Below, piece by piece: positions 9,637 to 27,162 of a DNA stretch of 64,000 bases; within the stretch, counting starts at the first letter, position 1, and the number at the start of each line of letters is the position of its first letter. Where the stretch lies: positions 67,457 through 131,456 of the forward strand of contig JAGWFT010000001.1 of assembly GCA_028867755.1 (NCBI GenBank), read 5' to 3'. The translations under genes were made by a program, and so were the position numbers. Origin of the DNA: Nitrososphaerota archaeon. GTDB lineage: Archaea; Thermoproteota; Nitrososphaeria; Nitrososphaerales; Nitrosopumilaceae. Under the pieces are notes generated by a model. That model searched no databases, was not told the origin of the DNA, and was given only the letters and a program-made list of their open reading frames with translations.

Positions 9637-10572
9637 TTGAACTCAAATAAGATAATACTTGTATCTATATTTGTTGTCGTTGTATATGCAATAATTATTT
9701 CATTATCTGATACCAAATTATTTCTCACAAAATTTTCTACTGTAAATATCAAATATCTATTGATTGCATTAGGATTTTTTTCTTTGGGCTATTTTGTAAG
9801 ATCCTTTAGGTGGATAGAAATGTTGAGATTTATGAAGATCAAAATTCCAGTTTTAAAAAATATCATAATTTACTTTACTGGTTATGCTTTTTCACTTACT
9901 CCAGGAAAAGTGGGAGAAGGAATACGCTCAAAATATCTAAAGGACAGCTTTGAAGTTTCTATCACAAGATCTCTACCCACAGTTTTAGCGGAAAGATATT
10001 ATGATGTCATTGGAGTTATTGCAATAATTTTCATCACTGTAGGGTTAACACAGACAGGGAGTTTCATGGTATATGCTGGCATTGCACTTTTGGTGTTCTT
10101 CTACTTTTCAGTAAGAAAGAAAATTGCTTTGAAGCTACTTTCGCCTTTGAATAGGGTCAAGAGGCTTCAGGCAATACAACATAATCTAATCGAATCGGTT
10201 GAGGTTCTTGAAACTCTATTGAAGCCAAAGATATTCGTACAATGTTCTTTTCTGACCATTGTATCTTGGATGGCAGAAGCTGTTGGGGCTTACTTTGTCT
10301 TTAAGAGCTTTCACTTGGAGTTTGGCATTCTGAAGGGGGCGTTTGACTATGTGACAACGTCGCTTGCTGGTGCTGCTACATTGCTGCCAGGAGGCGTAGG
10401 TGGAACCGAGGCAAGTCTCATAGGTCTTTTACTATTACAGGGTCATAGCTATGACGATATACTTGGAGCAGTTCTCATGATTAGATTCTTCGCGCTATGG
10501 TATGTCATAATAATAGGAATTGTTTTTACATCAATCTATAAGATGAACCAGAGGAGGTATATCTCCAAATGA
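9637..10572 (+). CDS. Flippase-like integral membrane protein (UPF0104 / LPG synthase TM domain family)
   Basis: 311 residues starting at TTG (9637), with about eight membrane helices. Family signatures are RSFRWIEMLR after the second helix, SLTPGKVGEGIRSKYL, an LAERYYDVIG segment, and a LLPGGVGGTEASL loop near the C-terminus. The family includes the membrane domain of MprF and archaeal AglD-like proteins and is often linked to lipid or polyprenyl-phosphate-sugar translocation. Its stop overlaps the start of the UbiA gene by 4 bp (ATGA), which implies translational coupling and a shared pathway. Confidence 0.82.
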   Translation: MNSNKIILVSIFVVVVYAIIISLSDTKLFLTKFSTVNIKYLLIALGFFSLGYFVRSFRWIEMLRFMKIKIPVLKNIIIYFTGYAFSLTPGKVGEGIRSKYLKDSFEVSITRSLPTVLAERYYDVIGVIAIIFITVGLTQTGSFMVYAGIALLVFFYFSVRKKIALKLLSPLNRVKRLQAIQHNLIESVEVLETLLKPKIFVQCSFLTIVSWMAEAVGAYFVFKSFHLEFGILKGAFDYVTTSLAGAATLLPGGVGGTEASLIGLLLLQGHSYDDILGAVLMIRFFALWYVIIIGIVFTSIYKMNQRRYISK

Positions 10573-11459
10573 CTAGCATGAGGACAATTGTAAGCTTCAT
10601 CAGGGTTAAACAATGGTACAAAAATGTCATCATCTTTTTGCCATTGGTATTTTCTTTCAAGTTCTTTCTCCTTCCAGAATTTCTATTAACCGTTCTTGGT
10701 TTCATAGCTCTTTCTATGATCTCAAGCGCAATGTATGCTAGGAACGATATCAAGGATCTGGAAACGGATAAATCACATCCGTTAAAAAAACAGAGGGCTT
10801 TGCCGGCTGGACGGATCAATGTAAAACAGGCAGAGACGATTTTTGGAATACTTCTGGTTATAGGATTTGGAATTTCGATTCTACTTAACGTGTACTTTAC
10901 TTTATTGCTTGCAATATTTTTTGCAAATACAGAGATCTATTCAAGATGGACAAAAAACATCATATTTCTTGATGCATTTGCAATTGGAATTAACTTCATC
11001 ATAAGAGCAATGGCTGGAATTGTTTTGTTGCACACTCCTCTTTCTCCATGGATTATTCTAGGTGTATTCTTTGTGGCTTTGTTTCTTGCCTTTACGAAGA
11101 GAAAAGGAGAGCTCATCACCCTAGAAGAAAAAGCACACGAGCATCGAGTAACGCTCAAAGATTATTCATCTTTTTCACTAAATTCAGCACTCATAATCTC
11201 AGCAGTTATGATAATCGTGACTTATTCACTTTATGCAATGCATGGTCCAAATGGAGATTGGAGGTTAATTCTCACAGTACCATTCATAATATTTGTCATT
11301 TTCAGACATCTGTACCTTTCAGGTATAAATGATACACTTGCTCAGACAAATGAGGTTTTCAAAGACAAGCATTCCCTTGTAGCTATTATTGCTTATGCCA
11401 TTTTCACGATAATTTTGTTGTATATGGGACATTCTGAAATCTTTGGTGGCAATTTTTAA
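10569..11459 (+). CDS. UbiA-family prenyltransferase, probable polyprenyl-phosphate phosphoribosyltransferase (DPPR synthase type)
   Basis: 296 residues, starting with the ATG that overlaps the previous stop. It is a polytopic membrane enzyme of the UbiA superfamily. The first Mg-binding motif NDxxDxxxD is present as Asn59-Asp60-Asp63-Asp67 (ARNDIKDLETDKSHP), followed by KKQRALPAGRI, as in decaprenyl-phosphate 5-phosphoribosyltransferases. The opening segment FIRVKQWYKNVIIF is also characteristic of that subgroup. The family reaction joins PRPP to polyprenyl phosphate. DprE1- and DprE2-like genes 13 kb away (24509-26559) would supply the next steps to a lipid-linked pentose. Other UbiA substrates remain possible. 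Confidence 0.8.
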   Translation: MTSMRTIVSFIRVKQWYKNVIIFLPLVFSFKFFLLPEFLLTVLGFIALSMISSAMYARNDIKDLETDKSHPLKKQRALPAGRINVKQAETIFGILLVIGFGISILLNVYFTLLLAIFFANTEIYSRWTKNIIFLDAFAIGINFIIRAMAGIVLLHTPLSPWIILGVFFVALFLAFTKRKGELITLEEKAHEHRVTLKDYSSFSLNSALIISAVMIIVTYSLYAMHGPNGDWRLILTVPFIIFVIFRHLYLSGINDTLAQTNEVFKDKHSLVAIIAYAIFTIILLYMGHSEIFGGNF

Positions 11460-11491
11460 GGTTTATTAAAGAACTGCGGAAGTCACATGGT

Positions 11492-12484
11492 GTGTCTGAG
11501 AAATATTTGGTAACAGGAGCTCCCGGGTGGCTGTGCAATAGACTTGTTAAAGTAATGGGACAAAGTGAGATGAAAGTAAGATGCCTTGTACTGAAGGGGA
11601 TGAAGATAGAGCATCTAGAAGAATGTGGTGCTGAGATTTTTTATGGTAATGTATTGAACTTTGATTCCTTGCTTGAAGCAACAAAAGGTATTGATAAAGT
11701 AATTCATGCTGTAGGAGTTATACACCCAAAGAAAGCAAAGGACTTTTATGATCTAAATACGGGGGGCACAAAGAACATGTTGGAAGCAAGCTCTCAGAAC
11801 GGGGTAAAGAAATTCTTGTTTGTAAGCTCCAACTCTGCTCAAGGATACAATGCAGACAAGGACAAACCAATGACTGAAGAGGGGCTAGAGAGACCATACA
11901 CTGACTATGGCAAGAGCAAGTGGAAGGCAGAGCAAATAGTAAAGGAGTATCAGAAATCTGGAAAATTACAAACCGTGATTGTAAGGCCATGCTGGTTTTA
12001 CGGGCCAAATCCAGGACAGATCTTCATTGAACTTGCAAAATACATCAAAAAAGGAAAGCCCCCAATCTTTGGAGACGGACAGAACCTCCGCACAATGTCC
12101 TATATAGATAATACTGTTGATGGTATACTAAAGGCAATAGACTCAGACAAGACTAATGGACAGATATACTGGCTTGGTGATGAAAAACCATACAAACTGA
12201 TTGACATCTACTATGAGATGGCAAAGAATCTTGGGGTGGAGATCAAACCAACTTACATACCATGGTTCTTGTGCTGGCTAGCTGAGAAAATTGATCAATT
12301 TACTGGAAAATTTGGACAATATCACAAACACCTTCATGTTATGGGCGAAACTGGGCATTACATATGGTGTGACACGGCAAAAGCACAGCAAGACTTTGGA
12401 TACAAGCCAGGAATATCGTTGCAGGAAGGAATGAAAAGAACTATAGGCTCTATGCAAGAAGCTGGTATTCTTGATAAGATCTAA
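11492..12484 (+). CDS. NAD(P)-dependent sugar epimerase/dehydratase (extended SDR)
   Basis: 330 residues with GTG start at 11492. The Rossmann motif reads VTGAPGWLCNRLVK; the third glycine position of the usual TGxxGxxG is a cysteine, which is unusual. The catalytic YxxxK is in the segment PYTDYGKSKWKAEQ. An SSNSAQGY strand and an MSYIDNTVDGI segment match the extended SDR fold. It overlaps the following SDR gene by 14 bp and follows UbiA by 32 bp, so it is probably in the same transcript. Substrate unknown; a nucleotide- or lipid-linked sugar is likely. Confidence 0.8.
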   Translation: MSEKYLVTGAPGWLCNRLVKVMGQSEMKVRCLVLKGMKIEHLEECGAEIFYGNVLNFDSLLEATKGIDKVIHAVGVIHPKKAKDFYDLNTGGTKNMLEASSQNGVKKFLFVSSNSAQGYNADKDKPMTEEGLERPYTDYGKSKWKAEQIVKEYQKSGKLQTVIVRPCWFYGPNPGQIFIELAKYIKKGKPPIFGDGQNLRTMSYIDNTVDGILKAIDSDKTNGQIYWLGDEKPYKLIDIYYEMAKNLGVEIKPTYIPWFLCWLAEKIDQFTGKFGQYHKHLHVMGETGHYIWCDTAKAQQDFGYKPGISLQEGMKRTIGSMQEAGILDKI

Positions 12485-13508
12485 GCGGTGCCTTGTAACT
12501 GGTGGTTCTGGATTTGTTGGCACACATCTTGTAAAGAAACTTTTAGATCTTGGTAATGAGGTGAGAATTCTCGATATTACAGAACCTGACAAAGGGATTG
12601 GTTCTAAGGTTGAGTTTTTCAAAGGAGATATACGAAATACTGAGAAAGTAAAGACGGCCTGTAAAGATATAGATCATGTCTTTCATGCAGTTGCACTAGT
12701 CCCCATTTCAAAAGCTGATAAAATGTTTGATGAGGTCAATGCAGGTGGAACTAAAAATATCCTAGATGCTGCAATAGAGAATAAAGTAAAGTCAGTTTTA
12801 CACTTGTCATCTACCTCAGTATACAAGATCCCAAATAGAGGTATGGTGATGGATGAGAATTACCCTAGAGCCCCAGTTGGAGCATATGGCAGAGCAAAAT
12901 ATCTTGCAGAAGAGATCTGTTTTGAATATATGAAGAAAGGAGTTCCTATAACCATCATTAGGCCGAAAACAATTCTTGGGCAAAATAGACTAGGTATTTA
13001 CTCGCTTCTTTTTGAATGGATAATGAATGACAAGCCAATTTTTATTCTAGGAGATGGCAAGAATTTTTATTCTTATATTAGCATTTCAGATTTGGTAGAG
13101 GCCATTGTTCTTAGTGCGGAAAAAGGAATAAGAGAAGTCTTTAATATTGCTACAGACAAATACGGAACTTACCGTGGAGACATAGAAGATCTTATCAAAT
13201 ATGCACATAGTAGATCAAAAGTGTATTCTATAAATGCCAATCTCTGTCGTTTTATTTTAAAAGCTCTTGATAAGATGAACTTATCTCCCTTGTCAGAGTG
13301 GCATTATTCCATAATAGACAAGGAATACGTCTTTGACATATCAAAGGCAAAGAAGATTCTAGGATGGTCTCCAAGGGATAGTAATCAAAAAATGTTTCGA
13401 GAATCATATGATTGGTTTAAGGAAAATTATCACTCACTTCATAAGACTGGTACTACTCACAAGACAAAACTCAATCCCAAGATTTTTGGGGTTATTAACA
13501 AACTCTAA
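12471..13508 (+). CDS. NAD(P)-dependent sugar epimerase/dehydratase (extended SDR)
   Basis: 345 residues from TTG at 12471, inside the 3' end of the previous gene; no other start precedes the Rossmann strand CLVTGGSGFVGTHL. The catalytic motif is APVGAYGRAKYLAEE (Tyr...Lys), preceded by HLSSTSVYK. The C-terminal part has the FNIATDKYGTYRG and AKKILGWSPRDS segments of UDP-sugar epimerases. It is about 25 residues longer than a minimal enzyme because of a polar tail. It ends 55 bp before the convergent phosphatase gene. Confidence 0.82.
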   Translation: MIRSKRCLVTGGSGFVGTHLVKKLLDLGNEVRILDITEPDKGIGSKVEFFKGDIRNTEKVKTACKDIDHVFHAVALVPISKADKMFDEVNAGGTKNILDAAIENKVKSVLHLSSTSVYKIPNRGMVMDENYPRAPVGAYGRAKYLAEEICFEYMKKGVPITIIRPKTILGQNRLGIYSLLFEWIMNDKPIFILGDGKNFYSYISISDLVEAIVLSAEKGIREVFNIATDKYGTYRGDIEDLIKYAHSRSKVYSINANLCRFILKALDKMNLSPLSEWHYSIIDKEYVFDISKAKKILGWSPRDSNQKMFRESYDWFKENYHSLHKTGTTHKTKLNPKIFGVINKL

Positions 13509-13563
13509 TTTGAAAAACATCTTTTTCATCTCTAAAAATTCTACAATTTTAACAGTAGGTATA

Positions 13564-14058
13564 TCATAACCTATGACTGAATTCTTTTATCATTTGTAGT
13601 TGTGTACGATTAAAATAACAATAGGGTCTAGCCTTTCTTACGGTTTGTATAGCTTCATCTGTTTTTATGCCTTCGGAAATTAGGTACAATACTGCCATCA
13701 GTGGACCTCTTCCCCTTCCTAAATTACAATGAATGAATATTTTGGATCCTTGCATACGTTGATTTCTTATCCATGCTGTTGTATTAATTGCTTCATTTAG
13801 GTCTGGAATGCCACGATCTTGTACGGATAATCTGATATAGCTCATCCTAAATTTCTCAATCTCCGTAGGATCATCATGATCTTCAGCCCGCATGTCTACT
13901 ACTGCTACGATTCCCTCTTTTGCAAGGTATTCTATTTTTGATGCTCCTCCAACGCTCAGATTTTGATTAATAAATGATATATCTGGTTTTTTGCCAAGTG
14001 TCTTTCTATGAAACCGTACTGTTACGGCTCCAAGAAGATGATCGAAGGTACTAAACAT
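13564..14058 (-). CDS. Dual-specificity / tyrosine-type protein phosphatase
   Basis: 164 residues. The active-site signature HCX5R is present as HCNLGRGRGP (Cys111, Arg117), with a general-acid candidate Asp81 in SVQDRGIPDL. The fold is that of a compact DSP (strand VAVVDMRAED, then the P-loop and a helical C-terminus with a YCYFNRTQ segment). It probably dephosphorylates phosphoproteins or a phosphorylated lipid or sugar. Because a DPPR-type pathway needs a 5-phosphatase, a role on phosphoribosyl lipid is conceivable but only inferred from position. Confidence 0.82.
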   Translation of the reverse strand: MFSTFDHLLGAVTVRFHRKTLGKKPDISFINQNLSVGGASKIEYLAKEGIVAVVDMRAEDHDDPTEIEKFRMSYIRLSVQDRGIPDLNEAINTTAWIRNQRMQGSKIFIHCNLGRGRGPLMAVLYLISEGIKTDEAIQTVRKARPYCYFNRTQLQMIKEFSHRL

Positions 14059-14267
14059 GATTTCATCATAAAATTAACTAGATTTATTCCAAACTATGAG
14101 TCGTATTATATACTCGATACATGTTGATAACTTTTTGATACATTGATTCAGTATCAATGAGCATCTCAAACGTGAGTAAGAAAACAAAGACCATAAATCG
14201 TTTGGTGAAAAACAATGTTGTTGCCTTCTTAGTTTTCTTGTAAATCTAAATCCATTTTTAAGCAAAA

Positions 14268-15800
14268 TTAAACAATTTTAGTTACTTGTTTTGATTTGTC
14301 TTTTAGAAAAAATGGAATTAATACACCAATAGAAAGCATTATTATCATTACAATAACAAAAATCTGGTTGTAAGAATTGAATGGATGATTTTCCGGATGT
14401 GATAAAGGACCAATACTTGGTAAAATAAAATCAAATCCTTGATAAATTGTATGGACTAAATTGCCTTTAATTGGGTTATAACAACACTCAGCCAATCTGC
14501 CTCCGATAAAAGAAAAACTAAATACAAAAGATGCACCTATAACTGAAAAAATTGATATTAATATTCTGTATATCCAATTTTTTGAAAATTTTTGTAAACC
14601 CAAAGCAAATGGTATTGTCATCAGAGGAATTGTGGGTAAAAAGTATCTAAATGGAGAATCTATTGCATCCATAGAGCTGATGGGATTCATCCATGTATAT
14701 GATCCTATGTCTAATGCTGATATAATTATAATAGTAGTCAACAATAAGCGGTTTTTATTCAATACTGATTTAATCCCTAATACAGATAACATTACCACTG
14801 GTGAAAAAATAAATAATCCGTGATATTTTCCAAAAAATATTTCAATCAATTCAGGGATTGCCCAAGTTTTAGTGTCACCACCACCAAAAACTCCATAACC
14901 AGAATAACCATTACTGAATGGTGGGTTCAATAGAAAGTGCAATGGAGTAATTGCTCCTAATGAAAGTCTTGCTTCTGCTCCTCCTACGAGTGAATGATAC
15001 ATGTAAATATTATTTATTATTGCCAGACTTGTTAAAATTATGAAAAAACTCAAGAAGACCATGAAATTTTTTAAATTGATTTTATGCGTTAAAAGCAGTA
15101 AAAAAACTAGAGGAATCAGTGCTAGATCTAGTATAATAAAAAAGATTTTTAAAAAAAAACCAAATCCTACGAGTGCTCCTGCTGCAGCCATATGGACATT
15201 ATTCTGATTTTTTTCAAAAATTACATAAAGAATAACAATCAAAAATAATGTAATTACTACATCAGGATAGATTTGGTTAGACCATGTGAATAAAAGCGTA
15301 GAAAAACTGAAAATTATTGTAGTAAGAAAACCTATTTTGGGTGTAGAAAGATTAGATGTAAATTTGTAGATGAAAACTGAAGTCAAGCTAGATAATGCCG
15401 ACATTGTTACTAATGCACCAAAAACACCTGCAACCGCGTAACCTGGAACTAGCATAAAAGACACACCTGGACCTCCTCCCATCATCCAATGCCCATCATC
15501 TCGTTGAAAAGATTCCCAATAAGCAGAATTATTGTAATATACATGAGGCCATATCAATTTTGGATCTTGATGACTGAAGTATTCATCCATGTACACATTG
15601 TGACGTTGTATTATCTCTGACGTAACGGCTAGATAATGTGGTTCATCTCCTGTCACGACCCCACCGATAACAGGATAATCTAGGTGTATTTTTACCTCAT
15701 ATACGTCCACTGAGACAAATGCAGTTAATGTTATAATAAATACTAGTAGAATTCCTTTTTTTTCTACTATTTTCCAAAAACTGCTAATCTGTATTTTCAT
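14268..15800 (-). CDS. Polytopic membrane protein, GT-C-like glycosyltransferase
   Basis: 510 residues from the ATG at 15800; a TTG at 15839 would add 13 residues but overlaps the remnant upstream. The first loop after the N-terminal helix has GGVVTGDEPHYLAVTSEII, with the acidic pair (GDEPHYL) typical of GT-C enzymes of the PMT/ArnT type. About eleven hydrophobic segments follow. It probably uses a polyprenyl-phosphate sugar on the outer face. No partner gene overlaps it; it stands between the phosphatase and a GT2 gene. Confidence 0.7.
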   Translation of the reverse strand: MKIQISSFWKIVEKKGILLVFIITLTAFVSVDVYEVKIHLDYPVIGGVVTGDEPHYLAVTSEIIQRHNVYMDEYFSHQDPKLIWPHVYYNNSAYWESFQRDDGHWMMGGGPGVSFMLVPGYAVAGVFGALVTMSALSSLTSVFIYKFTSNLSTPKIGFLTTIIFSFSTLLFTWSNQIYPDVVITLFLIVILYVIFEKNQNNVHMAAAGALVGFGFFLKIFFIILDLALIPLVFLLLLTHKINLKNFMVFLSFFIILTSLAIINNIYMYHSLVGGAEARLSLGAITPLHFLLNPPFSNGYSGYGVFGGGDTKTWAIPELIEIFFGKYHGLFIFSPVVMLSVLGIKSVLNKNRLLLTTIIIISALDIGSYTWMNPISSMDAIDSPFRYFLPTIPLMTIPFALGLQKFSKNWIYRILISIFSVIGASFVFSFSFIGGRLAECCYNPIKGNLVHTIYQGFDFILPSIGPLSHPENHPFNSYNQIFVIVMIIMLSIGVLIPFFLKDKSKQVTKIV

Positions 15801-15823
15801 TTTAAATAATCCAATTAGACATT

Positions 15824-16117
15824 TTATAAAATATTCCAATATATAGGTAATAGACTGAAAAAGCGCTTACAATCTCCTGATTCCCATCTCAGAATTAATA
15901 GACTTAAGATATTTTTATCTGATAACTTAGAGAATATATTGCATACTTCATGAATTGAATAACTCTTTCCGGATCCTACGTTGCACACATTGAATTTTTT
16001 CGTTTTTCTTAAAATTAATTCAATTGCTATAACTGCATCTTTTACATGAAGAAAATCTCTTTTTGGATAAAGTACTTTTAGATTCATTTTGAAAATAATT
16101 GTAGTTTTATAAAACAA
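15824..16117 (-). pseudogene. Fragment of a sugar epimerase/dehydratase (SDR C-terminal part)
   Basis: A 97-codon frame whose first ~65 residues match only the C-terminal third of nucleotide-sugar epimerases. YPKRDFLHVKDAVIAIE is the usual RDF-hinge before the final helices, and NVCNVGSGKSYSIHEV is the GSG...S strand. There is no Rossmann domain, no YxxxK, and the last ~30 residues lose resemblance to the family, as if the frame has slipped. The 3' end runs toward the GT-C gene. A dead remnant is the simplest reading. Confidence 0.65.
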
Positions 16118-16189
16118 GTAATTGTGATTTCAGTTCATTCTTTTACTAATTTTGTAGATTATTGAAATATACGACTTTATGTCAATGTC

Positions 16190-17209
16190 CTAATATCTGA
16201 GAATTATCCAAAGAATATTTAAACCTCCCTCCAAATTTTTAAGGAATTTATCAGAACCAACTTTCGATTCTCCAATTCTTTTCTTATATGTCACAGGAAC
16301 TTCAATAATTCTAAAATCTTTATCCAAACATTTAGTTGTTAAGAATACAATTTCAGCAATCCCCCCAATTGGTATGTCACTATCCGGAAAATTCAATTGA
16401 TCATGTATTTCTTCAATGACTTTCCTTCTGAAGATTCTTAGCATACATCCTTCGTCACTTATATTAAAAATTCCTAAATAAATAAAGTTCAGATATTTTA
16501 ATTGAAGTAATTTTGAAAAAAAATAATTCCCCCATATGTGTACTGCTGATTCTCGAAGATTTCCCTTTTCAGTCAGAATTTGTACTCGCCTCGAACCATT
16601 TACTACGTCACAATGGTCTAGATATGGTAACATTTTGTCTAAATCATATGCGCTATGAGTTCCATCTGCTTCAGTAAGAGCAATTACATTTGCATCTGTA
16701 TTCAGAGCTTCTTTTAGTCCGAGTACAATTGAATGTGCCATGCCTCTATTTTCAGTCTTTGTGATTACCTTTGCTCCACTTTGTCTAGCTAATTCGACGG
16801 TCTTGTCGCTACTGAAATTATCTATTACAATAACATGTTTGACAAATTTATGTCTAAGATGATCATCGACTACTTGTTGAATGGATAGTTCTTCGTTATA
16901 AGCAGGTATTACTACACAGATACGTGGGTTATCAATCCTATCGTATTGAAGAAAATGCTTTTCAGATTCTGTTCGATATTTCATCCTACTAAACAAATAG
17001 ATCAAAAATAAAATTATCCAAATGAAGTCTATTAATAATATCCATTTCAGATATTGCGTACTAACAAGAGTTATAATAAGACCTTTACCTTGTAGAAAAA
17101 ATTGTATTCCGTTAGTAATGAGTAGAATAAAGATTGAGAATACAGAATACAAATTTACAATAAAAATCGGGAAAAACGATATTACTAATACTTTAAAAAG
17201 TTTTGCCAT
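16190..17209 (-). CDS. GT2-family glycosyltransferase with N-terminal membrane helices
   Basis: 339 residues starting with ATG. Residues 1-75 hold two hydrophobic segments. The GT2 (GT-A) domain starts at RICVVIPAYNEE (~97-107), with VIDNFSSDKT for nucleotide binding and EADGTH (~180-185) in the position of the DxD metal site. The segment RVQILTEKGNLRESAVHIWG resembles dolichyl-phosphate-sugar synthases. It probably makes or extends a lipid-linked sugar on the cytoplasmic face, which could feed the GT-C enzymes nearby. It is divergent from the aldo/keto reductase gene. Confidence 0.85.
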   Translation of the reverse strand: MAKLFKVLVISFFPIFIVNLYSVFSIFILLITNGIQFFLQGKGLIITLVSTQYLKWILLIDFIWIILFLIYLFSRMKYRTESEKHFLQYDRIDNPRICVVIPAYNEELSIQQVVDDHLRHKFVKHVIVIDNFSSDKTVELARQSGAKVITKTENRGMAHSIVLGLKEALNTDANVIALTEADGTHSAYDLDKMLPYLDHCDVVNGSRRVQILTEKGNLRESAVHIWGNYFFSKLLQLKYLNFIYLGIFNISDEGCMLRIFRRKVIEEIHDQLNFPDSDIPIGGIAEIVFLTTKCLDKDFRIIEVPVTYKKRIGESKVGSDKFLKNLEGGLNILWIILRY

Positions 17210-17400
17210 TAATATCCCAATAGGAACAGATTATTTAACACATACTTTTGGGGTGGTCGTTGCTTTTAGTGGGATGGTATACAGAATGATGGATGCAACT
17301 GTTAGAGTGATTGAGATTATGTATTAATTTTAAATGGTTTCTGTATAGCAATTCTGTTACTAACACATAAATAACAAATTTAGTGATAGTAAACGAAATT

Positions 17401-19147: not shown

Positions 19148-19239
19148 TAGGATCTAAGATGATGTGTTTTGGGCCTAGATGGTAATTATCTAGTTACTAT
19201 ATTTTTAAAGCATGACAAAGGGAAGAAGGATGAAATAAC

Positions 19240-19674
19240 TTGAGCAATATACGTCATGTAGGATTAGTTGTTGCAGATATGGAAAAAGCTCTTGGATTTT
19301 ATCGTGATCTATTAGGCCTAAAAATATGTGGTACAACAGATGAAAAAGGAGATTACATAAATCAATTGCTAGCCAAGGAAAATATCGAATTAAAAACAAT
19401 CAAACTCTCTGCAGAGGATAATGCAACAAGAATTGAATTACTGAAGTTCTCTAATTCTAAATCCAATCAAACCAAAAAAATTGAATTATCTGACCCGGGT
19501 TTTACACACATAGCACTTACTGTAAACAATTTAGATGAAATATATTTACGCTTGCGAAAAGCTGGCATCCAATTCAACTGTCCTCCAAAATCCTCACTAA
19601 ATGGAAAATTAAAGATTACTTTTTGTAGAGACTTTGAAGGAAACTATTTGGAATTAACTGAAGAGATCTTATGA
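19240..19674 (+). CDS. VOC-superfamily (glyoxalase/bleomycin-resistance fold) protein
   Basis: 144 residues from TTG at 19240. It has two beta-alpha-beta-beta-beta modules: RHVGLVVADMEKALGFYRD at the N-terminus and FTHIALTVNNLDEIYLRLR in the second. Candidate metal ligands are His6, Glu in RIELLKF, His in FTHIAL and Glu in NYLELTEE. The order resembles methylmalonyl-CoA epimerase and glyoxalase I, but substrate cannot be assigned. In the glycan region it could be a sugar isomerase or epimerase. It converges on the kinase gene 57 bp downstream. Confidence 0.8.
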   Translation: MSNIRHVGLVVADMEKALGFYRDLLGLKICGTTDEKGDYINQLLAKENIELKTIKLSAEDNATRIELLKFSNSKSNQTKKIELSDPGFTHIALTVNNLDEIYLRLRKAGIQFNCPPKSSLNGKLKITFCRDFEGNYLELTEEIL

Positions 19675-19731
19675 TACCAGATTTCTACTGTTCCAAGAAA
19701 GAGTTTAAAATTTCTTGTGTATTACGTCTTA

Positions 19732-20748
19732 TCATTTAACGAAATCATATAAGTTCATAACTTTTGGACCCTCATTTTGAAATTGAAATTCAATCTGCTT
19801 TAAACCAATATTTTTCATTTTTTCTATCAGTTTTTGTCGCTTTGACGATTCACAGTAAAATAGCATATGACCACCACCACCAGCTCCAGTCAATTTTCCA
19901 CCGATTGCACCATGCTTTAATGCCATATTGTAAATTCGATCTATGCGTTCATTTGTAACATTTTTTGTGAATTTCTTTTTTGCAGTCCAACCTTTGTGAA
20001 GTAGATCACCAAATGTTGTTATATCTGATTTTTTTAGTGATTTGTACATAATTTCTGCAAGATTTTTTACATAGTTTAATGAATCCATAGTATCTTTTTG
20101 ATTTTCCTTTATTAGATCAATTTGTGTTGAAAGTATTGTTGAGCTAGTTCTCGTATCTCCGATATAGAATAATACTAAATTTTGTTGAAGTTCTAAAAAT
20201 GATGCCTTATTCATTTTTATTGGTACAACATTTACGTTACCTTTTGCAAACTTGATGTAATTAAATCCACCAAACGCTGAAACATACTCATCTTGTTTTC
20301 CGATGGGCCATTTTAGAATATTTCTACCTATATGGTATGAAATTTCAGCAAGGCTTTCTTTCGTAATTTCTTGTCCTTTCAATGATGATATTGTTTTTAC
20401 AAGGTTTACTGCTAAGGCACTTGAAGACCCTAGTCCAGAGCCTGGAGGGACATCACTAGAAATTAAAAAATTTGCCCCTTCTCCATAATTGAGATATTTG
20501 ATTACGGTGACGAACAATTCCATTCCATGTTTAGATAATAGTTTATCATAACTAGTTAGCTCATGGTGTGATTGAAAATCAGATGAAAAAGCTTGAACCA
20601 AATTATCATGGCGTGGATTAATTATAACATAAGTAAATTTAGTTATAGCTGTAGAGAGGACGTTTCCACCATGTGTTTCATAATATTCAGGAATATCCGT
20701 ACCCCCTCCTGCAAAACTTATCCTGACAGGAGACATACCAAGAAACAT
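19732..20748 (-). CDS. hddA: GHMP-family sugar kinase, D-glycero-alpha-D-manno-heptose 7-phosphate kinase type
   Basis: 338 residues. The N-terminal motif SPVRISFAGGGTDIPEYYE is the signature of HddA-like kinases. GHMP motif 2 is PPGSGLGSSSALAV (101-114). Motif 3 is GKLTGAGGGGHMLFY near the C-terminus. The family reaction phosphorylates C1 of heptose 7-phosphate to the alpha-1,7-bisphosphate. gmhA- and gmhB-like genes lie at 29865-30945, so three steps of the heptose route are in the window. It is last in a reverse-strand set with an SDR and two E1-type genes. L-fucokinase-like activity is the main alternative. Confidence 0.8.
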   Translation of the reverse strand: MFLGMSPVRISFAGGGTDIPEYYETHGGNVLSTAITKFTYVIINPRHDNLVQAFSSDFQSHHELTSYDKLLSKHGMELFVTVIKYLNYGEGANFLISSDVPPGSGLGSSSALAVNLVKTISSLKGQEITKESLAEISYHIGRNILKWPIGKQDEYVSAFGGFNYIKFAKGNVNVVPIKMNKASFLELQQNLVLFYIGDTRTSSTILSTQIDLIKENQKDTMDSLNYVKNLAEIMYKSLKKSDITTFGDLLHKGWTAKKKFTKNVTNERIDRIYNMALKHGAIGGKLTGAGGGGHMLFYCESSKRQKLIEKMKNIGLKQIEFQFQNEGPKVMNLYDFVK

Positions 20749-20843
20749 GAAGTGGGTATTTTTGATGTAGAATTTATTGTTATGGAATTTAGAAACAGAT
20801 AACTAAATTCTTATAACATAACTCAAAACTAACCAACAGTAAA

Positions 20844-20999
20844 TTATTGACGATCTCTTGATCTATTTGCTATTTCGTCATCACAATTACATGAGATTCC
20901 AAGAATTGACTGATAGACAGTAGGCAAAATGGCATCTGGAAAAGATACTTGTGGAAAGAGGCCTCTACTGAATCTGATATATGAGGGCTTGAAAGTAAC
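20844..20999 (-). pseudogene. Start-less coding remnant (51 codons), family not recognised
   Basis: In the 271-bp gap between the kinase and E1-beta genes, one reverse frame is open from a stop at 21000-21002 to TAA at 20844-20846. It reads like real protein (FKPSYIRFSRGLFPQV, then SFPDAILPTVYQSILG, then CNCDDEIANRSRDRQ). It has no ATG, GTG or TTG near its beginning. It looks like the last 50 residues of a deleted gene. I do not recognise the family. Confidence 0.4.
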
Positions 21000-21019
21000 T
21001 CATTATACACTTAACAATA

Positions 21020-21961
21020 TTAATTTATTAATTGACTCATGATATGTTTTATATCAATTTCCATTAGGTCTGATGTCGGATTTAGCCAATCATTAGAAAG
21101 TTGCCGTTTTAGAATAATTTTCTTCTTTAGATTGCAAGTGACACAAATTTCGGCAACAAGGGCATCACACGCAAGATTCTGACTTTTACTATCATCTATT
21201 ACTATCAATTTTTGAGTACTTTGCACATTATCAATTATCTTGCTCCAATTCGTGGGAGTAGCTGAAGTGACATTGAAAATAGATGTATCTATATTGCTTT
21301 TTTGCAATTCTTGATGTAAAAGCCAACCCTGAGGAAAGGAAAAGTTAAAACAAACTATTGTTGCATCTTTTCCCAAACTATATTGAAATACTGTATTATT
21401 GTCATTTGAATAATAAAGTTTCTCAGGTGATAATAGTTCTTCTTTGAATAGTCGTTGACTTACAGTAATTATCCTAAATCCTGGAGATACAAGTTCAGTT
21501 GAGATAATTTTTTCTGCTTCCCATTTGGTCATGATGGAGAATCCTGGGATTCTTGCTATGGAACAAAAATCAGGAAGGTTATTCAAACTTGATTGAGGTC
21601 CCTGATATCCATTATCTACCACAATCGGCATAATTGTGAAGGAAGAATTACTTCCCAGTTTCATGTTTCTAATGATATTATATGTGTTGACTAGGTGATC
21701 AATACCTAATAACAAAAAATCTAATTGTTTCATAAAAAATATGGAGGAAACGCCATTCATCATCATGCCAAATCCAAAACCGCACAAGGTGTTTTCTGAG
21801 TTTGTTGAATTAATTATCTTGCTACTAGGACGTACGGAGAGTCCTTTTGTCAATCCACCTAAACAAGAACCCGCACTGATGTTCTGACCAAATAATATAA
21901 GTTTATCATGCTTTGAAACCTCGTTTTTGAGTAGAGTATTCACAAACTCAAGGTATTTCAT
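21020..21961 (-). CDS. Thiamine-diphosphate enzyme, E1-beta / transketolase C-terminal-type subunit
   Basis: 313 residues resembling the beta subunit of 2-oxoacid dehydrogenase E1 or the pyrimidine-binding half of transketolase. The N-terminal part has LILFGQNISAGSC, and FGFGMMMNGVSSIFF where E1-beta has its conserved GxAxG segment. A C-terminal domain follows (ATIVCFNFSFPQGWLLH). It overlaps the E1-alpha gene by 4 bp, so the two are translated together. Such split pairs in polysaccharide clusters act on keto sugars or two-carbon transfers rather than in central metabolism. No E2 or E3 gene is nearby. Confidence 0.75.
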   Translation of the reverse strand: MKYLEFVNTLLKNEVSKHDKLILFGQNISAGSCLGGLTKGLSVRPSSKIINSTNSENTLCGFGFGMMMNGVSSIFFMKQLDFLLLGIDHLVNTYNIIRNMKLGSNSSFTIMPIVVDNGYQGPQSSLNNLPDFCSIARIPGFSIMTKWEAEKIISTELVSPGFRIITVSQRLFKEELLSPEKLYYSNDNNTVFQYSLGKDATIVCFNFSFPQGWLLHQELQKSNIDTSIFNVTSATPTNWSKIIDNVQSTQKLIVIDDSKSQNLACDALVAEICVTCNLKKKIILKRQLSNDWLNPTSDLMEIDIKHIMSQLIN

Positions 21962-22884
21962 GTTGATATATCCTTCTTAATTTCATCACGTATCTCTCTC
22001 GACATTTCTTCCAAAACAGATGAATTAGCATGCTTATTCAGGACAAATATGGGATCTTCTTCACTTGTTTTTATTAACAATGGCCAATCTTTTAATTCAA
22101 CGGTAGGTGCTGGACCTGCATGATAATTAACAAATTTACCGTTTGGGTTTTCAGGAGTTTTCATAATCCAATCTCCCATGGTTGTTACCATAACTTCTAT
22201 ACAGACTGGCATGCCATCTAACGCTAATTTCCTTAATTTCTTTAGTTGTTCTATATACTCTATTGAATTGTTTCCTTCTAATCTTACATATTTAATGTTA
22301 TAGGAGGAAGTTAATTTTTCAAGATCAATAGGGCATCGCCTCTGATCTATACGAGTAGACATAGACCATTCATTGTTTTCAACAATCACAAATGCTCCAA
22401 GATTGAGACTCTTTAACATTAAAAGACTCTCGTGAAAGGTCCCTTCCTCTATAGAACCATCTCCCCCCAAGACAATTGTGATCCCATTCTGAGGAAGAAT
22501 TTTCTGTGCCATTGCCACACCTGTTGCGACTGAAAAATTATTTCCCAAAATACTAGAGCTGTAAATGATTCCTTTTTGAGAATTTATAACATTCATAGAT
22601 CCCAGTTTTCCCTCTGCAAGTCCTGAAGGTTTCAGAAAATATTCATCCAAGATAGGTTTCAATCTTCCATGTCTTGCCAAATTATAAGCGATGTTTCTAT
22701 GACTTAGAATTAGCTTATCATCGCCTTCCATGAAATGATTCATGGCAACTGCAATTGCCTCATGACCAAAGGCCAAATGAATTGGGATCTTGAATTTTCC
22801 AGCCTTGTATTCTTCATTTACAATCATTTGAGCCAATCTTAACCAAAGTATGTCATGAATAATTTTTTTATTATCTAGTCCCAT
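21958..22884 (-). CDS. Thiamine-diphosphate enzyme, E1-alpha / transketolase N-terminal-type subunit
   Basis: 308 residues with the classic TPP motif: GGDGSIEEGTFHESL followed about 25 residues later by VENNEWSMST. It has FKIPIHLAFGHEAIAVAM at the front and KLGSMNVINSQKG before the cofactor site, as in E1-alpha subunits. It is partner of the overlapping E1-beta-like gene. It begins 9 bp after the SDR gene stop. The reaction is unknown, but decarboxylation or ketol transfer on a sugar precursor fits the neighbourhood. Confidence 0.8.
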   Translation of the reverse strand: MGLDNKKIIHDILWLRLAQMIVNEEYKAGKFKIPIHLAFGHEAIAVAMNHFMEGDDKLILSHRNIAYNLARHGRLKPILDEYFLKPSGLAEGKLGSMNVINSQKGIIYSSSILGNNFSVATGVAMAQKILPQNGITIVLGGDGSIEEGTFHESLLMLKSLNLGAFVIVENNEWSMSTRIDQRRCPIDLEKLTSSYNIKYVRLEGNNSIEYIEQLKKLRKLALDGMPVCIEVMVTTMGDWIMKTPENPNGKFVNYHAGPAPTVELKDWPLLIKTSEEDPIFVLNKHANSSVLEEMSREIRDEIKKDIST

Positions 22885-22893
22885 AGTAATCTA

Positions 22894-23775
22894 CTACACA
22901 AATGGTAAAACAGTCTTGAGTCCACTTTTCAAGTCTATTTCAGGGTTCCAATTTAACATTTTTTTTGCTTTGTTGTTTGAGGGGTTTCTTATGTTTATTT
23001 GAGAAGGATTTGTTTCTATTATCTTTACTGATTTCCCTAATAGATTCTGACTTGTTTCAATTATATCATGTAATGTGATTAATTTGTTACCAGTCAAATT
23101 CAGTATGTTAAATCCACTCAAGCCAATTGATTTCTTTATTCCTCCTGCAATATCAGATACATGAATAAAACGCCTGCCGTTTTTGAGAGATCCTACCTTG
23201 ATTTCTGATTGGTTTTTTACAGAACTCATCAATGACTCTACTGCCGCCCAGTTATTTTTTCGAGGTCCATATATAATACCAAAACGCAAAATTGTTACTG
23301 GACAAAATCCCTGTTCATATTTCTGGCGCAAGTTTGTCTCACTTACTAATTTTGAAAGTGCGTATTCAGAATGATGATTGGCTATGTTTATGAAAGCATG
23401 TTCATCTTTGATTTCATCTTCTTTAAATTCGTCATATACCCATTCGCTAGATGCGAAGATGAATTGTTTGACTTTTTTCATTGATACCGCATTAATCAGA
23501 TTTAGAGTACCCATGACGTTGACATCAAAGCATTCGTATGGCCTACCTCTACAATCTGCATCTCTAGATAATGCAGCCAAATGAATTAGTACATCAGCTT
23601 CTTGAGGAATGACTTGATGAATTTGTGGATTTCTGATATCTACTTGATGAAATTCATAACCACCTGATTTTATATTGGCAGAATCGAAACCAATTATTTC
23701 AAAATTACTATCCTTTAATTGTGAAATTAATTCTTTGCCAACAAAGCTTTCTGATCCAGTTATAACTATTTTCAT
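22894..23775 (-). CDS. NAD-dependent sugar epimerase/dehydratase (extended SDR)
   Basis: 293 residues. Rossmann motif VITGSESFVGKEL has Ser-Glu-Ser in place of the usual central glycine region (GSESFVG), with TG and the last G kept. It continues with LIHLAALSRDADC, the catalytic HSEYALSKLVSE, and RFIHVSDIAGGIKK. It is first gene of the reverse set SDR - E1-alpha - E1-beta - HddA, suggesting a concerted pathway to an unusual sugar. Confidence 0.82.
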   Translation of the reverse strand: MKIVITGSESFVGKELISQLKDSNFEIIGFDSANIKSGGYEFHQVDIRNPQIHQVIPQEADVLIHLAALSRDADCRGRPYECFDVNVMGTLNLINAVSMKKVKQFIFASSEWVYDEFKEDEIKDEHAFINIANHHSEYALSKLVSETNLRQKYEQGFCPVTILRFGIIYGPRKNNWAAVESLMSSVKNQSEIKVGSLKNGRRFIHVSDIAGGIKKSIGLSGFNILNLTGNKLITLHDIIETSQNLLGKSVKIIETNPSQINIRNPSNNKAKKMLNWNPEIDLKSGLKTVLPFV

Positions 23776-23893
23776 GTTTTTTATTACCTATTAATTATAC
23801 TACATATCAACCTTTAGAGAAACTGGCTTTCACTAGAGTTGTTCGATAGTGGATCGATGACGACAAGTAAACAATTGACAAACAAAGGGCCAA

Positions 23894-24400
23894 TTAAAAT
23901 CTGAAATAATTAAAATATTGAAGAAATATGTTTCCGAGGTAAATGGCAACTAGTGAATGAATAGATCTTGCTATTCCCATTGAGATCACAAATTTCTTAA
24001 AATCATATTTTTTAATTCCTGCAATTATTGTCACAACTTCTGTCAATACGGGTATCAAATTTAAAATAAAGATTATAGTCCAACCGTGTTTGTTTAACCA
24101 ACCAGAACTTTTTTCAAAATGTTTATTTTCATGTGTTTTTTTTAATAATTTGTAAAATTTTTTACCATCATATCCTATAAAATAGGATAAAATTCCACCC
24201 CCTATTGCTCCGACAGTCATAACAAGAAATACTGTTGATGTTTCTTCACCATCTAAAAGAAGGGCTGTTGATGTAATTACAACTGGAATGGGAATAAACG
24301 AAGAAAAGACCGAATTAAGAAATAGACCAAGCAATCCGTATTTTACAAATATGGGATTTTCAAGGATAGGTTTTAGCAGGTCAATCAACATGGTTGTCAA
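23894..24400 (-). CDS. DedA/VTT-domain membrane protein
   Basis: 168 residues, small for DedA and near the YqaA-type subgroup. Signatures are SSFIPIPVVITSTALLL early, GGGILSYFIGYDGKKF in the re-entrant loop, and LNLIPVLTEVVTIIAG with the conserved Pro. VTT-domain proteins include polyprenyl-phosphate and phospholipid translocases. A role in recycling polyprenyl carrier for the DprE-type pathway encoded just upstream on the same strand is plausible but inferred. Confidence 0.78.
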   Translation of the reverse strand: MTTMLIDLLKPILENPIFVKYGLLGLFLNSVFSSFIPIPVVITSTALLLDGEETSTVFLVMTVGAIGGGILSYFIGYDGKKFYKLLKKTHENKHFEKSSGWLNKHGWTIIFILNLIPVLTEVVTIIAGIKKYDFKKFVISMGIARSIHSLVAIYLGNIFLQYFNYFRF

Positions 24401-24508
24401 GAATATTTTCCTAAATATTAGGGCTCAGTTACACGAAATAATCGCTTGAAAACATGTTCTCGATGCATAAAAATGAAGCCACAATCAGAGAGATTAAAAC
24501 GTTCATTT

Positions 24509-25246
24509 TTAAAAATTTATTTTCTTGAAAATTTTCCATGGAATAAAAGGTAAAAGTAATTTAACTAATTTCCATTTTTTGGGGTACGCCATAGTTCCAA
24601 AATCTCTAAACCTATTTGAATAAACTACATCGGATAATTTCTTTACGTCTATACGCCTGAAAAAAACTTGGTCTTGACCCCCAAAAGAAAGATTAGTATC
24701 AAGATAACCCAAAACATAGAATTGAATTATTACATTAGAATTTTGCATATGATGTCTTAGACTTTCGAAAAAACTTTCTAATCCCCTTTTTGATGCAGCA
24801 TAAGTTACATTTCTACTTCTACCTCTGATTGCAGCAACACTACCAAAACCTATAATCACAGATTTTCTTTCTTTTAGTGAATTCAAAAAATGATTTATTA
24901 TTAGACATACGCATATTAGATTGGTATTAAAAATTTCAATTGCTGTGGTATCATCTAGTCCTGGAACATCATTGATATCTGAATATCCAACGGGAAAAAG
25001 TATGCCTTCTAATGGAGATATATGGTTTAGTGATTGAATAATTTTAGTAAAATCTACAGATATTTTCTTTAAAGATAGTTCAATAGGTATAACTTTCACT
25101 TTAAACCTAATTTCTAAATCAGATTTTAATGGAATTAAATCCCTCATATCGGATGAAATTAAAATTAAATCATTTTTCTCTGAAGCAAATTTTTCTGCAA
25201 GGGATCTCCCTAATCCTGCAGATGCACCTACAATAATGAATGTCAT
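24509..25246 (-). CDS. Short-chain dehydrogenase, DprE2-like (polyprenylphosphoryl 2-keto-ribose reductase)
   Basis: 245 residues. Classical SDR features: nucleotide loop GASAGLGRSLAEKF (7-20), Ser136 in GFGSVAAIRG, Tyr149 and Lys153 in VTYAASKRGLESF. The C-terminus is basic and hydrophobic (KWKLVKLLLPFIPWKIFKK), consistent with membrane association as in mycobacterial DprE2. It overlaps the upstream DprE1-like gene by 4 bp (ATGA). In mycobacteria the pair DprE1-DprE2 epimerises C2 of decaprenylphosphoryl-ribose to arabinose; the same organisation here supports the same chemistry. Confidence 0.8.
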   Translation of the reverse strand: MTFIIVGASAGLGRSLAEKFASEKNDLILISSDMRDLIPLKSDLEIRFKVKVIPIELSLKKISVDFTKIIQSLNHISPLEGILFPVGYSDINDVPGLDDTTAIEIFNTNLICVCLIINHFLNSLKERKSVIIGFGSVAAIRGRSRNVTYAASKRGLESFFESLRHHMQNSNVIIQFYVLGYLDTNLSFGGQDQVFFRRIDVKKLSDVVYSNRFRDFGTMAYPKKWKLVKLLLPFIPWKIFKKINF

Positions 25247-26559
25247 AAATTCAGTTGTTCAGAAAGGTAAGATTTAAAAATTCTATCCGGATCAATTTTT
25301 TTTAGAAGATTTTTAAATTCCTCATACTGAGGATAACACTTTTCAACAATATTCTTTGGTAGTCTTGAGTCTTTTATAATGTAAGGAAGTGCCTTGTAAG
25401 ACATTACTAGTTCGTCAATTTTAGATAGAAAGTGGCTAGTTGAAGGTGAATTTTTAAAGTTCAAAGTGATCGAGAGACCATCTCTACAATATTGAAGAAA
25501 TTTCTGTTCGCCTCTAAAGGGTTTTAGGCCCATGAGATGTAAATCAGGTTTTTCCTTTCTAATTAAACTAGTAAGATCATGAATGAAATCCCTTATGTTA
25601 TTTTTAGAGACAAGGATCTGACATTCCCTAAATCCTTTTTTTCCATAAAGTACAAAATACCATTGTGTTGAAAATGTAAATGGAAAAAAATTATTGAAAA
25701 TGTCTTTTTCTATTTTATTTTGACTTGTTTCGATGTTTCTATTAATAGAATTGAACAACGGAATGGTGAATTTTCCCCAAAAGGATATTGGGATCTGAAT
25801 TTTTTTAATAGTTGTTTTTTTTGGAACTATCAAATTGTTGCCAAGAAATCCTTCTGAAAATGACCCTATTTGTACGACTCCTTTCTCAAAATTCTTCAAT
25901 ATTGACCCATTGTGCCATGCATAAAGTATCTCCGAATTGGGATTTCTTTCAAATATTTCCGCAGATTCTATCATGGAATCTACTTTCCTTGGTTCAACAG
26001 TGATTCTGTCAGAAGGTAAATCTCGAAGTTGAATCTTTACTTTTGTTATGATACCAGTCAATCCCAAACCGCCAAAAGTAGCTTCAAAAAGTTCTGATTT
26101 TGATTCTAGTATTCTTGATCCATTTTTAGGATGAAATAGCTCTATCCAGATAACATGTTCTTTGAATGATCCATATTTGTGAGGATTCTTACCATGAACA
26201 TTTGCTGCTACACAGCCTCCTATCGTTATGTCTGGATATCCCGGTTGTACTGGCAGATATAATTTCTCAGTAAAGCTCCATTCCAATAACTTTTTGAGTG
26301 TAATTCCAGATTCAACAACCACAGTCTTCTGTTTTACATCGAATTCCAGTATCCGATTAAAGGGAGATAATTCTCTAACCAGAGTATCTTGTCCAAAGCT
26401 TGCTGGAACATAAGACAATCCAGAACCTCGAGGAATTTGAAACGTTGTAATGCTTTCTTCAAGCATTCTTGTTCTGTCTGGTTTTTGATGTAGTGTAGTA
26501 ATAGAAACTGTTTTATCAAAACTGGTAAAAGTTGTATTTTTTGTATAAGGTATTTTCAT
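25243..26559 (-). CDS. FAD-linked oxidase, DprE1-like (polyprenylphosphoryl-ribose 2-oxidase)
   Basis: 438 residues, close to mycobacterial DprE1. The VAO-type FAD domain shows the PRGSGLSYVPASFGQDTLV pyrophosphate loop and VQPGYPDITIGGCVAAN, then VHGKNPHKYGSF (His122-Gly-Lys-Asn). The C-terminal substrate domain ends with YIIKDSRLPK (Lys396 matches the catalytic-site lysine of DprE1 as I know it) and IDPDRIFKSYL. The position of the benzothiazinone-reactive cysteine of DprE1 appears to be Thr here (GLSITLNF). Known reaction: oxidation of the ribose C2 hydroxyl on the lipid carrier. It is coupled to DprE2. Confidence 0.85.
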   Translation of the reverse strand: MKIPYTKNTTFTSFDKTVSITTLHQKPDRTRMLEESITTFQIPRGSGLSYVPASFGQDTLVRELSPFNRILEFDVKQKTVVVESGITLKKLLEWSFTEKLYLPVQPGYPDITIGGCVAANVHGKNPHKYGSFKEHVIWIELFHPKNGSRILESKSELFEATFGGLGLTGIITKVKIQLRDLPSDRITVEPRKVDSMIESAEIFERNPNSEILYAWHNGSILKNFEKGVVQIGSFSEGFLGNNLIVPKKTTIKKIQIPISFWGKFTIPLFNSINRNIETSQNKIEKDIFNNFFPFTFSTQWYFVLYGKKGFRECQILVSKNNIRDFIHDLTSLIRKEKPDLHLMGLKPFRGEQKFLQYCRDGLSITLNFKNSPSTSHFLSKIDELVMSYKALPYIIKDSRLPKNIVEKCYPQYEEFKNLLKKIDPDRIFKSYLSEQLNL

Positions 26560-26730
26560 AAATTACTTCTAAAATTTCTCTATTTATTATATTAACATTA
26601 GTATTAAATTGGTTATCAAAAATCATTCTTCAGGCATGTTTTTTTCAAAAATAAATCAGCAGAAAGTTTATTGATAGCAAATACCAGCCAAAATTTCTTG
26701 GCAATAACATATTTATCGTAAAGCGAATTT

Positions 26731-27162
26731 CTAGCTCTTCCAAGCAATTTTTTTTTGAGTAATATAATTAAAAAAGAATGCAGTTATAATTGCTATAAAC
26801 TCACTAATATAATAGGGGAATCCAATTTTTTCTGTAAAAAAAACCAATACTAACTCATTTACTCCCAATCCCAAAACAGCAAATGAATTGTATTTAATAA
26901 AACGAATTATTCCTCTTGTGCTTCTTGGTACGTCAGCAAATGTCCACCTATCATGTGCTACATAAGTCCATATTTGTGTAATTTCAAAAGCAAGTGCTAC
27001 TGAAATTACATAATAAACATGTAGAATAGACGTAAACAAAACTGTGATGAAGAAGACACTACTTGCTGAACCTGTTGCTACAAGTAAATATTTGAAAAGG
27101 ATGGGATTCATTATGTATTCGCGCAAAGTACCTATGATATCCATGCTACGTATTTTGTTCAT
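26731..27162 (-). CDS. GtrA-family membrane protein
   Basis: 143 residues with four hydrophobic helices and the GtrA pattern: FKYLLVATGSASSVF in the first helix and YVAHDRWTF between helices 2 and 3. A polar loop with arginines follows, then a terminal NYITQKKIAW. GtrA proteins are proposed to move or handle polyprenyl-phosphate sugars. Rv3789, a GtrA-like protein, is functionally tied to the arabinan pathway in mycobacteria. It sits upstream of the DprE1-DprE2 pair on the same strand (171-bp gap), which supports that link. Confidence 0.85.
   Translation of the reverse strand: MNKIRSMDIIGTLREYIMNPILFKYLLVATGSASSVFFITVLFTSILHVYYVISVALAFEITQIWTYVAHDRWTFADVPRSTRGIIRFIKYNSFAVLGLGVNELVLVFFTEKIGFPYYISEFIAIITAFFFNYITQKKIAWKS

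Follow-up and report, generated by a model that had tools for sequence, protein, structure and literature searches.

Two putative lipid-linked-sugar modules, including a predicted pentofuranose pathway, in a surface-sugar island of a Nitrosopumilaceae archaeon

Can a complete mycobacterial-type route to polyprenyl-phosphoryl arabinofuranose, of the kind that serves the cell wall of the tuberculosis bacterium, be found in an archaeon? The question is raised by a stretch of 64,000 nucleotides (hereafter the window) from a Nitrososphaerota archaeon of the family Nitrosopumilaceae (GenBank assembly GCA_028867755.1, contig JAGWFT010000001.1; G000:C24:67457-131456 in our numbering), the genome of which is nearly complete at 1.64 Mb. 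A first, sequence-only reading of the window proposed such a route from neighboring homologues of UbiA, DprE1, DprE2, and GtrA. Every open reading frame named in it is present at the coordinates given, and the family matches are well beyond chance. The reading to which we lean, by a modest preponderance of the evidence, is that this island holds two lipid-linked-sugar modules and not one mycobacterial pathway. The UbiA module (9637-15839) is predicted from its gene content to be an archaeal version of the "three-component" route to pentofuranoses, for which DprE1 would not be needed, and the second module (24509-27162) is centered on a DprE1/DprE2-like pair. A complete arabinose route is not established because this pair belongs to a divergent branch that is found elsewhere without UbiA.

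The UbiA-family protein (10569-11459, forward strand) is predicted to be a polyprenyl-phosphate phosphoribosyltransferase (PPPRS), in agreement with the sequence-only reading. It matches the NCBIfam model of decaprenyl-phosphate phosphoribosyltransferases (NF008977) at 1.2e-55, the next kind of UbiA model being at 8.6e-11, and its best match in the PDB is Rv3806c (8j8j, 6e-28). With 189 bits against a curated cut-off of 234 bits, it is a homologue of this family and not a certified ortholog; the UbiA of C. glutamicum, a true user of the pathway, likewise falls under this cut-off. In Rv3806c, cryo-electron microscopy shows phosphoribosyl pyrophosphate (PRPP) in contact with Arg22, Lys28, Tyr70, Asn73, Asp77, Lys87, Arg90, Tyr138, Lys143, and Tyr157, among which Lys28 and Tyr70 bind the 5'-phosphate (PMC10994848). 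Nine of these ten residues are identical in the window protein (R22, K28, Y70, N73, D77, K87, R90, Y138, and K143), and the tenth, Tyr157, is replaced by Phe, a change shared by 30 of 54 homologues. In the remaining archaeal UbiAs, positions 28/70 are Asn/Met. Phylogeny, which had been suggested as a test, places the window protein with the 54 PPPRS rows of the tree, its exact place among them not being fixed, while a branch of 3.8 changes per column, supported at 100/99, sets off seven other archaeal UbiAs; one more, the eighth, is a long-branch row. A lipid or quinone prenyltransferase of the ordinary archaeal kind, present in this neighborhood by coincidence, would be compatible with the score under the equivalog cut-off, but is hardly tenable in view of the retained PRPP-specific K28 and Y70, the distance to the other archaeal UbiAs, and the structural match to Rv3806c.

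Of the other 397 genomes sampled in the phylum, 17 carry a PPPRS-type UbiA but no full-length DprE1. The surroundings of these UbiA genes (L101-L118) vary widely; among the neighbors are a protein that combines a PHP_C with a nucleoside deoxyribosyltransferase domain (L101) and a DUF4432 protein (L114).

Regarding the genes around UbiA, an LPG_synthase_TM (LPG_TM) membrane protein (9637-10572, forward strand; PF03706, 3.5e-40) is the predicted flippase for the lipid-linked pentofuranose, and its gene overlaps that of UbiA by 4 bases, as had been noted from the sequence. LPG_TM homologues also adjoin UbiA in haloarchaea (27% identity) and in G042 (31%), the sole other genome with a PPPRS-type UbiA among 101 genomes. 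Downstream of UbiA, in the same orientation and overlapping each other, lie the genes of two extended SDR epimerases, SDRa (11492-12484, forward strand) and SDRb (12471-13508, forward strand). SDRa matches an SDR adjoining UbiA on rhizobial plasmids at 36% (210 bits), and SDRb matches UbiA-linked SDRs of rhizobia, haloarchaea, and Streptomyces at 33-36% (178-224 bits). The rhizobial clusters have two SDRs each, and each window SDR has one specific partner among them (210 vs. ~100 bits for SDRa, 224 vs. 86 bits for SDRb); in R. gallicum, UbiA, both SDRs, and an SMR protein follow one another in one row, with the UbiA-SDR-SDR order of the window. The proteins that match SDRb best in a set of 72,556 plasmids are rhizobial and haloarchaeal SDRs, and a PPPRS-type UbiA is located within ~10 kb of the match in 12 of the 14 best plasmid matches examined, the exceptions being S. 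fredii CCBAU 83666, with no UbiA in the fetched stretch, and Mesorhizobium AR07, where UbiA is 24 kb away. The haloarchaeal SDR adjoins UbiA together with a GT-C enzyme, a PHP phosphatase, and an LPG_TM flippase. A further stretch of 97 residues in the window (15824-16117) matches the C-terminal part of an SDR epimerase and is possibly a gene remnant.

Convergent with SDRb is a small gene for a DSP-type phosphatase (13564-14058, reverse strand; PF00782) with an intact CX5R site (HCNLGRGR); neither the mycobacterial-type PAP2 phosphatase nor the bacterial HAD phosphatase domain is present in the UbiA module. Among 100 relatives, an orthologue of the DSP protein (50% identical) can be found in G042 only, where the DSP, UbiA, and flippase genes are located within 2.5 kb, and DSP and PPPRS-type UbiA thus co-occur in 2/2 genomes of the 101. 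Most relatives have a distant DSP paralogue only (at most 48 bits), and two genomes at the order level reach 64 and 93 bits. Because the only other PPPRS-UbiA carrier among these 101 genomes is also the only one with a close, adjoining DSP, this protein is a well-founded, if unproven, candidate for the 5'-phosphatase acting on the UbiA product. Three GT-C enzymes had been listed as potential users of the donor: two of them, at 14268-15839 (reverse strand; PMT_2 type, PF13231, 1.5e-8), the candidate user of the lipid-linked sugar, and at 7876-9429 (forward strand; PMT/PMT_2 type, PF13231 and PF02366), score over the cut-off, while the membrane protein at 6498-7727 (forward strand) bears a weak GT-C resemblance, its GT87/PMT_2 matches being under the cut-off.

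As for the substrates and products of this module, the steps of dephosphorylation and flipping, and the acceptor, we infer a pathway in which UbiA would move 5-phosphoribose from PRPP onto polyprenyl (dolichyl) phosphate, the DSP phosphatase would take off the 5'-phosphate, SDRa and SDRb would convert the ribofuranose by epimerisation into a different pentofuranose, the LPG_TM protein would flip the donor, and a GT-C enzyme would attach the pentofuranose to a surface glycan or protein. With a PPPRS, a flippase, a candidate phosphatase, and GT-C enzymes in place, a lipid-linked pentofuranose donor, as first proposed for this archaeon, is well predicted. The same does not apply to arabinofuranose in particular, since the sequence does not tell one pentofuranose from another: SDRa and SDRb could yield xylose, arabinose, or some other epimer, and the sugar could also be ribose.

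The DprE1-like flavin adenine dinucleotide (FAD) oxidase (25243-26559, reverse strand) and the DprE2-like SDR (24509-25246, reverse strand) are encoded by genes overlapping by 4 bases, and their assignment to these families is upheld. DprE1 matches NF053785 at 4.3e-58, sugar-lactone and other FAD oxidase models being at 1e-7 to 1e-17, and its best structures in the PDB are those of mycobacterial DprE1 (1.7e-33, full length, ~400 residues). It misses the curated cut-off of NF053785 (198 vs. 500 bits) and is therefore a homologue and not a certified ortholog. Sugar-lactone oxidases, the grouping with which had been named as a potential counter-argument, are not the closest by models or structures, lactone oxidases not being among the tree rows. 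DprE2 (PF00106, 1.6e-20) harbors the SDR motifs YAASK and a nucleotide-binding motif, and belongs to the same divergent lineage, with 43% identity to the protein from a Halioglobus contig (L130), 58% to that of G641, a genome of the same family as the window, and at most 28% to canonical DprE2.

Carriers of this DprE1 clade are few. Among 398 sampled genomes of the phylum, a full-length match can be found in the window genome only (195 bits; others at most 75 bits); one further carrier, G641 (DprE1 50% and DprE2 58% identical), was found among 250 genomes of the family, and no further member among 383 genomes of the order. When 84,980 species genomes were searched, the best DprE1 relative proved to be that of the Halioglobus contig (39%; DprE2 43%), the remainder of the best 80 being canonical bacterial DprE1 proteins (24-31%). 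No close relative was found in plasmids, and none in phage records or IMG/VR contigs; since the sequence patterns used in the contig scan do not fit some members, the member count is a lower bound. The Halioglobus contig is not a misbinned archaeal contig, as indicated by its GC content (49-57%) and by syntenic copies in three more genomes of its bacterial family. In the DprE1 tree, the window and Halieaceae proteins form a separate clade (support 100/100) with a stem of 2.5 changes per column. The archaeal FAD oxidases of the GlcD type are far from it, while its position relative to the canonical rows is not fixed by the tree. G642 was rejected as a carrier of the clade: its protein (L250, 9389-10849) is only 25% identical and has an ALO domain. 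This other DprE1-like/ALO-type oxidase adjoins an LPG_TM flippase, and orthologues of the window GT2 and cytidylyltransferase are found with it.

At the active site, the catalytic and FAD-site residues of DprE1 are kept (Y60, H132, K134, W230, K367, and K418 in the numbering of Mycobacterium tuberculosis, Mtb). The earlier alignment of window Lys396 with Mtb Lys418, and of window Thr365 with the inhibitor-reactive Mtb Cys387, holds, but the missing Cys is no special trait, this position being occupied by Ala in 89 of 96 canonical homologues. In the pocket, all 96 of 96 canonical proteins have Leu at 317, Gln at 334, and Val at 365, where the members of the divergent clade in the tree have Phe, Glu, and Gly/Ser. 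Position 228 (mostly Val in canonical proteins, Ser in Mtb) and position 118 (Thr in 94 canonical proteins) are both Tyr in the clade. The window protein displays Q334 to E, L317 to F, V365 to G, V/S228 to Y, and T118 to Y. Residues 228, 317, and 365 of Mtb DprE1 contact inhibitors (PMC6128881). The altered pocket suggests another sugar substrate.

Does the divergent DprE1 go together with PPPRS? In the gammaproteobacterial Halieaceae, it is found in a rare, conserved cluster of flippase, DprE1, DprE2, GT2, methyltransferase, and divergent membrane protein genes (L130, L229, L230, and L231), some parts of which are present in three of the four, the flippase not being called in L229 nor DprE2 in L231. 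PPPRS is absent from all four of these genomes (best score 26-30 bits) and present in 9/9 tested Halieaceae genomes with canonical DprE1 (130-230 bits), a contrast (Fisher's exact test, p = 0.0014, on genomes that are related and not independent) which is suggestive of a divergent DprE1 that does without PPPRS. No PPPRS was detectable either in G641, a genome 63% complete.

These results bear on the route initially proposed, in which UbiA would make polyprenyl-phosphoryl-ribose, DprE1/DprE2 would epimerise C2 to give polyprenyl-phosphoryl-arabinofuranose, GtrA would flip the product, and a GT-C enzyme would use it, the two SDRs serving for another sugar or a second pentofuranose. All homologues are located within one island, the GtrA-DprE1-DprE2 order is that of many bacterial DprE1 loci, UbiA is found within the fetched stretch in 58 of 79 canonical DprE1 loci, and the catalytic residues of DprE1 are kept, as are the equivalents of Tyr327 and Tyr415. 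Set against this are the long stem of the divergent clade, the altered pocket, the lack of PPPRS in all five other carriers examined, the 63% complete G641 included, the two epimerases already present in the UbiA operon, and the location of the modules in separate gene runs of opposite orientation, 13 kb apart. Moreover, no Pfam match to an Emb/Aft-type arabinosyltransferase or to a PAP2-type phosphatase of decaprenylphosphoryl-5-phosphoribose was obtained among the open reading frames scanned at 1-36 kb, the genome beyond not being searched. As a single, complete mycobacterial-type pathway, this route appears doubtful.

In the two-module reading, DprE1/DprE2, perhaps with GtrA and a GT2 enzyme, would carry out a two-step epimerisation of a lipid-linked sugar dependent on FAD and nicotinamide adenine dinucleotide (NAD), the substrate being more likely a sugar not made by UbiA. 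The GtrA membrane protein upstream of DprE1 (26731-27162, reverse strand) belongs to its family (PF04138, 3.9e-18), as claimed, but is weak as pathway-specific evidence, no real similarity being seen to one DprE1-linked bacterial GtrA. The GT2 enzyme (16190-17209, reverse strand) resembles polyprenyl-phosphate-hexose synthases, its best NCBIfam models being AglJ (1.4e-21) and dolichyl-phosphate hexose transferase (1.5e-15), both under the cut-off. Its orthologues can be found in 3/100 relatives and, close to the DprE1-like genes, in G641 and G642; a strict linkage to DprE1 was ruled out by the three relatives, which carry the GT2 without a close DprE1. It can be hypothesized, tentatively, that the two enzymes of the divergent pair together epimerise a polyprenyl-phosphate sugar, e.g., a polyprenyl-phosphate hexose, made by a GT2 synthase and not by UbiA. 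Alternatively, the pair may have as its substrate one of the soluble or nucleotide sugars made by the island (CDP-glucose, heptose, or dTDP-type). It is indeed flanked by a glucose-1-phosphate cytidylyltransferase (28009, over the cut-off), an RmlC (27370), and an SDR (22894), and the cytidylyltransferase is also near the DprE1-like genes of G641 and G642. This is improbable, as the pair is adjoined by a flippase in Halieaceae or by GtrA in the window, and its best models and structures are those of DprE1, a user of lipid-linked sugar.

Several points weigh against the separation into two modules. UbiA and DprE1/DprE2 are, after all, encoded together in a single 17-kb island, the four Halieaceae possibly represent one acquisition in genomes that are not all closed, and the incompleteness of G641 limits what its lack of UbiA can tell. 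At the equivalents of Tyr327 and Tyr415, the Tyr of canonical DprE1 is retained in the window protein but not in its clade-mates, and the window protein may therefore still use the UbiA product. In the UbiA module, the roles assigned to the DSP and SDR proteins are putative and derive from gene linkage.

If confirmed, the UbiA module would extend a bacterial pathway to archaea with other flippase and phosphatase parts, and provide testable candidate enzymes for lipid-linked pentofuranoses in a group of archaea about whose surface sugars very little is known. For an ammonia oxidiser, one N-glycan has been solved (PMC12153357); pentose is not mentioned in two papers on Nitrosopumilus-type surface glycans, which neither confirms nor excludes a pentofuranose. 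With regard to the pair, the presence of DprE1/DprE2 is not proof of arabinose, since one clade seems to do without the ribose-loading enzyme, and such a clade would widen the capabilities of a drug-target enzyme family. Were its substrate made by GT2, DprE1/DprE2 chemistry would be a general epimerisation of lipid-linked sugars, present in a few archaea and gammaproteobacteria.

The island itself covers bases 1-36000 of the window, where the GC content is mostly 0.30-0.36, vs. 0.38-0.46 for most of the remainder, and where profile scans reveal almost exclusively sugar-coat genes; a replication factor A-like gene of archaeal type is found in the right part. The cytidylyltransferase (28009-28788) is a true glucose-1-phosphate cytidylyltransferase (398 bits vs. 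a cut-off of 300), and the same island encodes a thiamine pyrophosphate-dependent E1 alpha/beta pair (21020-22884). Some antibiotic pathways use E1-like pairs to introduce two-carbon branches into sugars, and a branched CDP-derived sugar is a possible product of the island. HddA-like kinase, GmhA-like isomerase, and GmhB-like phosphatase genes, together with a GDP-mannose 4,6-dehydratase-like gene (19732-20748, 29862-30458, 30409-30945, and 32221-33237), predict a GDP-heptose-like route, and a NodU-like carbamoyltransferase (4675-6315) suggests carbamoylated surface sugars. Adjoining the island, a protein of 3111 residues (36695-46030) with NHL, Ig-like, and pentapeptide repeats is perhaps a surface carrier of glycans.

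Among known systems, the UbiA module resembles the three-component systems of Citrobacter youngae O1/O2. There, one locus encodes a pathway made up of a PPPRS of the UbiA type, a flippase, a GT-C enzyme, a phosphatase domain, and an SDR epimerase that turns ribose into xylose (Kelly et al., PMC11127046). The epimerase, ORF13, acts on polyprenyl-phosphate ribofuranose according to genetic evidence (PMC11127046). The window module differs in being archaeal, in its LPG_TM instead of MATE flippase, its separate DSP instead of a fused HAD domain, and its two SDRs; its GT-C enzymes are matched by PMT_2/GT87 Pfam models only, from libraries that do not include GT136, the family of the prototype transferase. 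Homologues of UbiA, SDRa, and SDRb are shared with the UbiA-SDR-SDR-SMR-GMC clusters on rhizobial symbiotic plasmids (NGR234, R. gallicum, and S. fredii), in which UbiA is fused to a HAD phosphatase (in the one copy examined), the flippase is of the SMR type, and a GMC oxidoreductase, not found in the window module, is added. On pNGR234a (297590-316543, L254), the PPPRS-type UbiA, two SDRs, SMR transporter, and GMC oxidoreductase are located near nodS/nodU, and the rhizobial cluster looks like an undescribed lipid-linked pentofuranose route. The haloarchaeal system likewise combines UbiA, an LPG_TM flippase, an SDRb homologue, and a GT-C enzyme, which is DolP-mannose-transferase-like, but has a PHP-type phosphatase instead of a DSP and no SDRa homologue was seen in it. 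The mycobacterial decaprenylphosphoryl-arabinose pathway (Rv3806c, Rv3807c, and Rv3789-3791) shares homologues of UbiA, DprE1, DprE2, and GtrA with the island, DprE1 and DprE2 being adjacent in both; unlike in this pathway, no PAP2 phosphatase or Emb/Aft model is matched in the island, and DprE1/DprE2 come from another clade. The closest bacterial relatives of the pair remain those of the Halieaceae flippase-DprE1-DprE2-GT2-methyltransferase cluster, whose genomes are without PPPRS and where LPG_TM stands directly before DprE1, in the place taken by GtrA in the window.

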